DNA of 41,586 nucleotides, from positions 1-41,586 of the forward strand of contig VMDM01000033.1 in the NCBI GenBank assembly GCA_008080815.1. Reading direction: 5' to 3'. Below are positions 25,190-41,051 of the stretch, piece by piece. Within the stretch, counting starts at the first letter, position 1. Every line of letters starts with the position of its first letter. The translations under genes and the position numbers were made by a program. Below the pieces are notes generated by a model that was given only the letters and a program-made list of their open reading frames with translations, searched no databases and was not told the DNA's origin. The stretch comes from Candidatus Nitrosopumilus sp. (lineage in GTDB: Archaea; Thermoproteota; Nitrososphaeria; Nitrososphaerales; Nitrosopumilaceae).

Positions 25190-25234
25190 TTTTGAAAAAA
25201 GTTCATTTCAACAAACATAGAAATTTGTTGAATG

Positions 25235-25298
25235 GATGCTTCATTACTCATAATCCTCATCAAAAAATCAGACGGCTTTTCCGCTCATCATCAGCATC
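25235..25298 (-). ncRNA. Candidate C/D box guide RNA (predicted target: C34 of tRNA-Met)
   Basis: Reading the minus strand: stem GATGCT (25298-25293), one G, C box ATGATGA (25291-25285), guide GCGGAAAAGCCGT, D' box CTGA (25271-25268), TTTTT, C' box TGATGA (25262-25257), guide GGATTATGAGTA (25256-25245), D-like ATGA (25244-25241), then AGCATC (25240-25235), which pairs perfectly with the first stem. Size (64 nt) and guide spacing (13 and 12 nt) fit archaeal sRNAs. The D box has A for C. The second guide complements UACUCAUAAUCC, and the fifth base before D pairs with the C of the CAU anticodon. It may be cut from the aIF5A 3' region. Confidence 0.7.
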
Positions 25299-25733: not shown

Positions 25734-26357
25734 TTATTTAACTTTTGATTTTAGATTTTCCAGTATTGATAAACTAAGAAAATTTGTCAATGTGAGTCCA
25801 CGTCTGTTTGCATCTTTCTTGGTTTGTTCACAGTATTTTTTTACACTTTGATGACTTTTTTCACTTGCCACTTCAATAATGACAATATTGTCCGAATAAG
25901 GAAATTTGAATTTAGGCGGGATTGTTGAAAAAGTCATCATATTTCCTAAACAAGCAGTTTCAATCTGATTTTTTTTAACAAGTAGGTTTGCAATTTCTTG
26001 AAATTCATCATAACCTTTACCATATTCCAAATAATATACAGAAAGAAAATTTCTTTCTCCTTCAACCTCGTGATTAAATAATTCATCTTCAATGTTGAAT
26101 ACAAATGAAGTATTTTCTTGGTTGAATTTTTGAAGTTCAGAATAAATTTTTTCACTATCAATGAATTTTGCTAGTAAATAGTGATTAGCCAGTTCAGGGA
26201 AAAATGATCTACTATCAGAAGAAAACGTTCCAGTTACAAAGTGTAGTTCCTCTATATTTTTGGATTTTTCCCATAGTTCTTTTAATTCAACAGATTCATG
26301 ATTATGAGAATATGGTACACAGACATACCCTGAAAAATGAAGTTGTAATTCTGACAC
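25734..26357 (-). CDS. Unknown 207-residue protein
   Basis: The start is a GTG at 26357. The product is a soluble, acidic protein with alternating predicted strands and helices, including CVPYSHNHES near residue 13 and a C-terminal helical half with KKYCEQTKKDANRRGLTL. No membrane segment or catalytic motif stands out. It is 21 bp upstream of aIF5A on the same strand and probably shares its transcript, with a TATA-like AATAAATAC on the minus strand upstream. I do not recognise the family. Its place suggests a lineage-specific partner of the translation genes but does not prove it. Confidence 0.65.
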   Translation of the reverse strand: MSELQLHFSGYVCVPYSHNHESVELKELWEKSKNIEELHFVTGTFSSDSRSFFPELANHYLLAKFIDSEKIYSELQKFNQENTSFVFNIEDELFNHEVEGERNFLSVYYLEYGKGYDEFQEIANLLVKKNQIETACLGNMMTFSTIPPKFKFPYSDNIVIIEVASEKSHQSVKKYCEQTKKDANRRGLTLTNFLSLSILENLKSKVK

Positions 26358-26526: not shown

Positions 26527-26652
26527 CCCAAGCTAGCTCAGCCTGGTAGAGCTTCCGGCTGTAGTTGTTGGCTAAGATAGCTGACCGAATAACAGCATAT
26601 CAGGCATACAGAAACCGGGTTGTCGAAGGTTCAATTCCTTCGCTTGGGACCA
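26527..26652 (+). tRNA. tRNA-Tyr (anticodon GTA) with a 49-nt intron and encoded CCA
   Basis: The acceptor CCCAAGC (26527-26533) pairs with GCTTGGG (26642-26648); the discriminator is A26649 and CCA follows at 26650-26652. The D arm is GCTCAGCCTGGTAGAGC. The anticodon stem TCCGG pairs with CCGGG (26615-26619), and the loop spliced is CTGTAGA with GTA at 26561-26563. The T arm is GAAGG/CCTTC. The intron (26565-26613) sits at the canonical 37/38 site. A bulge-helix-bulge is visible: CTGT (26559-26562) with ACAG (26608-26611), flanked by three-base bulges AGT and AAA. Confidence 0.95.
26565..26613 (+). other. Intron of tRNA-Tyr
   Basis: This 49-nt insertion interrupts the anticodon loop after G37. 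The bulges are cut as AG^T and AA^A by the standard archaeal splicing endonuclease rule, which leaves a normal 7-base loop. Confidence 0.85.
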
Positions 26653-40951: not shown

Positions 40952-41051
40952 TGCAGAGGGTGGGATTTGAACCCACGAACTCCTAAGAGAAGGGATTTCC
41001 AATTTTTGGATCTTGAGTCCCTCTCGGTTGACCGGGCTTCGATACCTCTGC
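40952..41051 (-). tRNA. tRNA-Leu (anticodon CAA) with a 15-nt intron
   Basis: On the minus strand the acceptor GCAGAGG (41051-41045) pairs with CCTCTGC (40959-40953); the discriminator is A at 40952 and CCA is not encoded. The anticodon stem AGGGA pairs with TCCCT, and after removal of the 15-nt intron the loop is CTCAAGA with anticodon CAA (41015-41013). A long variable arm (CTC TTAG GAG) identifies a class II tRNA, and the T arm is GTGGG/CCCAC with TTCAAAT loop. Confidence 0.92.
40997..41011 (-). other. Intron of tRNA-Leu
   Basis: ATCCAAAAATTGGAA interrupts the loop after G37. TCCAA and TTGGA pair around AAA, so the intron is little more than one hairpin. A strict bulge-helix-bulge is less clear than in tRNA-Tyr. 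Confidence 0.8.

Follow-up and report, generated by a model that had tools for sequence, protein, structure and literature searches.

Does the short gap between the genes for aIF5A and dph6 encode a guide RNA, and which nucleotides would such an RNA mark for methylation? We addressed this question in a 41,586-nt contig of Candidatus Nitrosopumilus sp., the whole of which is called the window here. The initial annotation had placed a box C/D RNA in this gap, on the minus strand, with 13- and 12-nt guides and a GATGCT/AGCATC stem. Each of these elements was located where it had been put, and domain matches to PF01287/PF21485 and PF01902 identified the flanking genes (Table 1). From 25298 to 25235 the minus strand reads GATGCT-G-ATGATGA-GCGGAAAAGCCGT-CTGA-TTTTT-TGATGA-GGATTATGAGTA-ATGA-AGCATC, in which the two arms of stem I enclose, after one spacer base, box C, the first guide, D', a linker, C', the second guide and D. 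An RUGAUGA C box followed in order by D', C' and D within a terminal stem, with guides of ~10–13 nt and the target nucleotide at N+5 of D or D', is the archaeal box C/D arrangement; the first base of box D deviates from it (NUGA). This anatomy confirms 25298-25235 as a predicted box C/D sRNA with C, D', C' and D boxes, two guides and a 6-bp terminal stem.

Table 1. Features of the predicted sRNA and its neighborhood in the window. The asterisk follows the predicted target base.
Feature	Position	Strand	Basis
Box C/D sRNA gene, ~64 nt	25235..25298	-	BLAST, anatomy in 60 sequences, covariance model
Terminal stem I, 5' arm GAUGCU	25293..25298	-	Compensatory changes
Box C AUGAUGA (k-turn loop GAU, then GAUGA)	25285..25291	-	Sequence, anatomy in relatives
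D' guide GCGGAAAAGCCGU, 13 nt; N+5 = 25276; predicted target 23S rRNA 5'-CGGC*UUUUCC-3' = C2510 (E. coli numbering)	25272..25284	-	10 Watson-Crick pairs in six genomes; compensatory change in other families
Box D' CUGA	25268..25271	-	Anatomy in relatives
Box C' UGAUGA	25257..25262	-	58/60 distinct sequences
D guide GGAUUAUGAGUA, 12 nt; N+5 = 25249; predicted target elongator tRNA-Met A31-C40, C34	25245..25256	-	Pairing to tRNA-Met of relatives
Box D AUGA (relatives: AUGA, UUGA or CUGA)	25241..25244	-	Anatomy in relatives
Terminal stem I, 3' arm AGCAUC	25235..25240	-	Compensatory changes
aIF5A gene, directly upstream of sRNA; PF01287/PF21485	25302..25712	-	Domain matches, synteny
dph6 (diphthamide synthase) gene, downstream of sRNA; PF01902	24500..25189	-	Domain match, synteny
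Hairpin UUCAACAAA...UUUGUUGAA, U run shortly after	25204..25232	-	Near relatives only

The sRNA starts 3 nt past the aIF5A stop codon and ends 45 nt before dph6. The hairpin and U run downstream are a possible 3' end or terminator; the hairpin arms vary in near relatives (e.g. CAACAAA/UUUGUUG, CAAUAAA/UUUAUUG), and other relatives lack the hairpin. On the far side of aIF5A, positions 25734-26357 (minus strand) encode a conserved 207-aa protein without a Pfam family, which stays adjacent to aIF5A in several outgroups. Rfam at its gathering threshold found only two tRNAs and no sRNA family. An intron-containing tRNA-Leu(CAA) at 40952-41051 (minus strand) and an intron-containing, probable tRNA-Tyr(GUA) at 26527-26649 (plus strand) were found by Rfam and missed by ARAGORN.

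Conservation was assessed at several distances. BLAST found the sRNA region in 33/36 other genomes of the genus, and a covariance model gave matches at E <= 0.01 in 337/400 genomes of the class (202/220 among the good ones); matches in other orders reached about 1e-8 to 1e-14, while some weak, near-threshold matches may represent other C/D RNAs. Boxes and guide are thus kept well beyond the genus. The window scores 89.9 bits against this model, of whose training set it is itself a member. Of 80 named loci around aIF5A, mostly from Nitrosopumilus and relatives, 67 yielded the sRNA to a pattern search and one more to the covariance model; in the remaining 12 it may lie beyond the stretch examined. 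We then parsed 60 distinct sequences, 58 from the family of the window and two from outgroups. Stem I was paired at 6/6 positions in 59 of them, the distance from C to D' was 13 in 56, C' was UGAUGA in 58, and the guide cores were near-invariant with canonical spacings. In 31 aligned sequences 98.9% of the stem I cells were paired and 4/6 pairs had changed on both sides; only 0–3 of 500 shuffles matched this, and slid versions of the stem paired at just 36–49%.

The ATGA in place of CTGA at box D had been singled out earlier as unusual; among the 60 distinct sequences the first base is A or U rather than C in 58. Since stem I closes directly on box D, the sRNA would adopt a k-turn geometry, with the loop GAU and then GAUGA opposite NUGA. 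Base 6 of the C box stands against base 1 of box D as G:A in 27 sequences, U:U in 27, G:U in four and G:C in two, and the sheared G.A pairs of the k-turn are intact. In C/D RNAs the internal D'/C' boxes are normally less canonical than C/D; here the pattern is the opposite, with a canonical internal D'/C' pair and a degenerate box D.

The gene neighborhood is shared well beyond the genus. At 24/30 outgroup loci the flanks examined held a match to aIF5A or dph6, several to both, mostly within about 100 nt of the sRNA and in the same direction (families f2, f3, f4, f7, f8, f12, f13, f16, f18, f21 and f22; two f18 loci have an aIF5A copy in the opposite direction). These proteins are only about 32–60% identical to those of the window over most matches, and SRP54 comes after dph6 in many outgroup loci, as it does in the window. 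As the sRNA matches came from a whole-genome search blind to neighbors, the shared neighborhood is strong evidence of orthology.

To read the pairing of the D guide with elongator tRNA-Met, we turned to relatives, because the assembly of the window, an 87%-complete MAG, lacks the tRNA gene; the 23S site discussed below is missing from it as well. A search pattern that fixed the T-loop distance returned no tRNA-Met in 16 genus genomes, and a shorter pattern found it. In all, elongator tRNA-Met was found, and matches the guide, in 30 genus members, in the form GCCGGGGTAGCTCAGCCTGGTTAGAGTGCCAG-(40-nt intron ending GGCAAT)-ACTCATAATCTGGAGG..., with the intron (~40 nt) at 30/31. The pairing was read in the 27 genus genomes with both RNAs, all of them relatives of the window's assembly. 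There the D guide core GAUUAUGAGU is complementary to the anticodon arm, forming 10 Watson-Crick pairs with A31-C40 that place C34 at N+5, as had been predicted. The complement first proposed was CUCAUAA plus UCC, and its CUCAUAA part stands; the UCC part does not, the genus tRNA reading ...CUCAUAA-UCU. The first D-guide base can therefore make only a G.U pair, which is added at tRNA position 41 where that base is G. The core is invariant in the genus, is kept with minor edge changes in f7, f8, f13, f18, f21 and f22, and matches A31-C40 of elongator tRNA-Met in G043 and G048, outgroups in which the tRNA gene was also read. These complementarities support the initial annotation's reading of the sRNA as a putative tRNA-Met C34 guide. 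One sRNA (L275:2942-3008) has the D guide GGGUUAUGAGUG and a CUGA box D; with its A to G change at N+10 this guide would fit a tRNA-Met with C39.

Against the pre-tRNA the D guide makes 11 Watson-Crick pairs, one of them with the last intron base; 10 of the 11 are conserved, and 1/400 shuffled guides did equally well. N+1 could pair with the last intron base in 22/27 genomes; in five it is G or T and does not track that base, and the guide is retained in G043, whose tRNA-Met is intronless. The conserved pairing is therefore exonic (31-40) and not the intron-inclusive pairing of haloarchaeal-type guides, and we dropped an obligatory eleventh, guide-intron pair, since N+1 varies freely. Unspliced tRNA-Met may be preferred as substrate, since bases 31, 39 and 40 belong to a stem. 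Introns at 30/31 of elongator tRNA-Met are also widespread in other families of the class (L096-L101, L185-L190), and in some of these genes a further intron interrupts the variable or T arm.

Two other tRNAs with this anticodon were compared. The initiator tRNA-Met (L064) and a probable tRNA-Ile(CAU) (L015) have G31 and C39 and form only seven Watson-Crick pairs and one G.U with the D guide, so that A31-U39 appears to be the discriminating pair. L015, from the window's own genome, was the first tRNA-Met candidate and was rejected, as its GGGCCC acceptor stem and CCGG-CUCAUAA-CCGG arm look like tRNA-Ile(CAU), and relatives have a separate elongator tRNA-Met. L064 (G000 C12:24930-25040) is a candidate initiator with only a partial Rfam match; its D-arm region is unusually long and may hold a non-canonical intron.

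The target of the D' guide had been left open. An exact search with its 11-nt complement hit little besides the sRNA gene and scattered sites, none of them in rRNA. The N+1 base is unpaired, and allowing for this gave a site in 23S rRNA. Across the 7-kb rRNA region of six genomes the best site was 5'-U-CGGC*UUUUCC-UAU, with 10 Watson-Crick pairs from N+2 to N+11, a result equaled by 6/400 shuffles. The predicted target base lies 42 bases from U2552 of the A loop, which makes it C2510 (E. coli numbering). Opposite guide position N+7, 23S carries C (CGGCUCUUCC) in all 12 non-genus families listed and U in this genus; the sRNA base at N+7 is correspondingly G (GAAGAGCC) in 26/30 outgroup sRNAs and A in this genus. 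From these sequences the A/G of the guide and the U/C of 23S read as a compensatory change separating the genus from other families, probably a single lineage-level event. Seven of the nine outgroup genomes in which both guide and 23S were read agree at N+7; the exceptions are G054 (5% contamination), with guide A against 23S C, and G040, a weak match away from the locus that has no matching D' guide.

Taken singly, the guide shuffle tests are modest (1/400 for D, 6/400 for D'), so that the argument draws its weight from conservation, register, covariation and synteny in combination. The box motifs are short and about 0.3–1.5% of shuffles give a single guide match this good, as a chance resemblance or a conserved non-RNA sequence would allow; with stem covariation, a compensatory guide change and the same position across orders, we regard such an origin as extremely improbable. 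It is also very unlikely that the RNA directs a reaction other than methylation (base acetylation of C34, for instance) or serves as an L7Ae-binding k-turn in the aIF5A 3' UTR. C/D RNAs can guide acetylation in eukaryotes, according to PMC7994747, but in both targets a C stands at N+5, and this register fits methylation, as do the two complete guide modules. The UTR role would suit an sRNA that begins so close to the aIF5A stop codon, but would make conserved guides needless, and in some genomes the sRNA lies more than 1 kb from aIF5A.

Orthologues with changed D guides bear on whether both guides work. Seven orthologous sRNAs at or near aIF5A/dph6 (L314, L321, L324, L328, L329, L332 and L338) have such guides, with a target found only for G051. 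In this f16 genome the sRNA lies beside aIF5A and a dph6 fragment, and its D guide core, GAUCUUGAGU, makes 10 Watson-Crick pairs to tRNA-Leu(CAA) with C34 at N+5, the window's tRNA-Leu(CAA) serving as stand-in target. G040 and G059 have the same D core at places other than the aIF5A/dph6 locus. The D guides of f2, f3, f4 and f12 gave no convincing target among the tRNAs and rRNA of this genus, and the D' core AGAGCC with G at N+7 is retained in all orthologues with changed D guides. A real C/D sRNA in which only the D' guide works, its tRNA-Met match being accidental or vestigial like other orphan guides, would explain why the D' guide is kept where the D guide changed (f2, f3, f4, f12 and f16) and why box D is degenerate and D' canonical. 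We consider this unlikely, given the invariance of the D core in the genus, its retention and tRNA-Met match beyond it, and a replacement guide that fits C34 of another tRNA. Tentatively, the sRNA locus beside aIF5A/dph6 could have been fixed before the orders of the class split, coupling an unchanging 23S C2510 guide with a D guide that can be re-aimed from C34 of one tRNA to that of another (from Met to Leu(CAA), and perhaps to further tRNAs). If so, this would be a guide locus whose predicted tRNA target changed while its rRNA target stayed, and Cm2510 would be an rRNA methylation common to archaea and eukaryotes.

Our preferred reading, to which we give a probability of about 0.92, is a two-guide archaeal box C/D sRNA whose D guide would direct Cm34 of elongator tRNA-Met and whose D' guide would direct 23S Cm2510. 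It builds on the observed anatomy, conservation, synteny, complementarities, N+5 register and compensatory changes in the terminal stem and 23S pairing. The sRNA would most likely be processed out of the 3' end of the aIF5A transcript and assemble with L7Ae, Nop5 and fibrillarin, the last near-universal in archaea (PMC8481954). The assembled RNP would then 2'-O-methylate C34 of elongator tRNA-Met and 23S C2510, in helix 90 beside the peptidyl transferase center. Following the argument of PMC7668247, Cm34 would likely hold the tRNA to AUG and away from AUA.

Archaeal C/D guide work has centered on hyperthermophiles and haloarchaea, and our literature search found no description of Nitrosopumilus C/D sRNAs. 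The present locus would add a class-wide guide RNA in ammonia-oxidizing archaea with two named predicted methylation sites, one of them adjacent to the peptidyl transferase center and methylated in plants and human. The Haloferax sRNA for Cm34 of tRNA-Met and Pyrococcus sR49 (PMC2584109) are likewise trans-acting C/D sRNAs predicted to methylate elongator tRNA-Met C34 by N+5. There part of the tRNA intron joins the pairing, whereas here, with the intron at 30/31, the conserved pairs are all with exon bases, the guide base adjoining box D does not track the last intron base, and the second guide has a predicted rRNA target. The best Rfam match, the archaeal C/D family sR41 (RF01126), scores 27.1 bits against a gathering score of 54; it shares a D guide with UAUGAG, the last G at N+5 as in the window, but has an unrelated D' guide and a CUGA box D. 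The guides for human 28S Cm4456 and Arabidopsis 25S Cm2880 (PMC11542601) address the same rRNA position by numbering offset, a likeness of target site. Arabidopsis Cm2880 corresponds to E. coli C2510 because Arabidopsis Um2922 corresponds to E. coli Um2552, and it shares one row of Table 2 in that paper with human Cm4456 and with Cm2711 of the alga O. tauri; for E. coli, yeast and P. abyssi the row has no entry. A Pyrococcus sRNA cited in PMC7994747 addresses the wobble base of tRNA-Leu(CAA), and the G051 orthologue resembles it in complementing that tRNA with C34 at N+5, but the G051 match arises at an aIF5A/dph6-linked locus that elsewhere would target tRNA-Met. PMC7994747 also cites a Pyrobaculum survey of tRNA-targeting sRNAs without a second target; compared with those, a single RNA addressing both rRNA and tRNA, as predicted here, is unusual.
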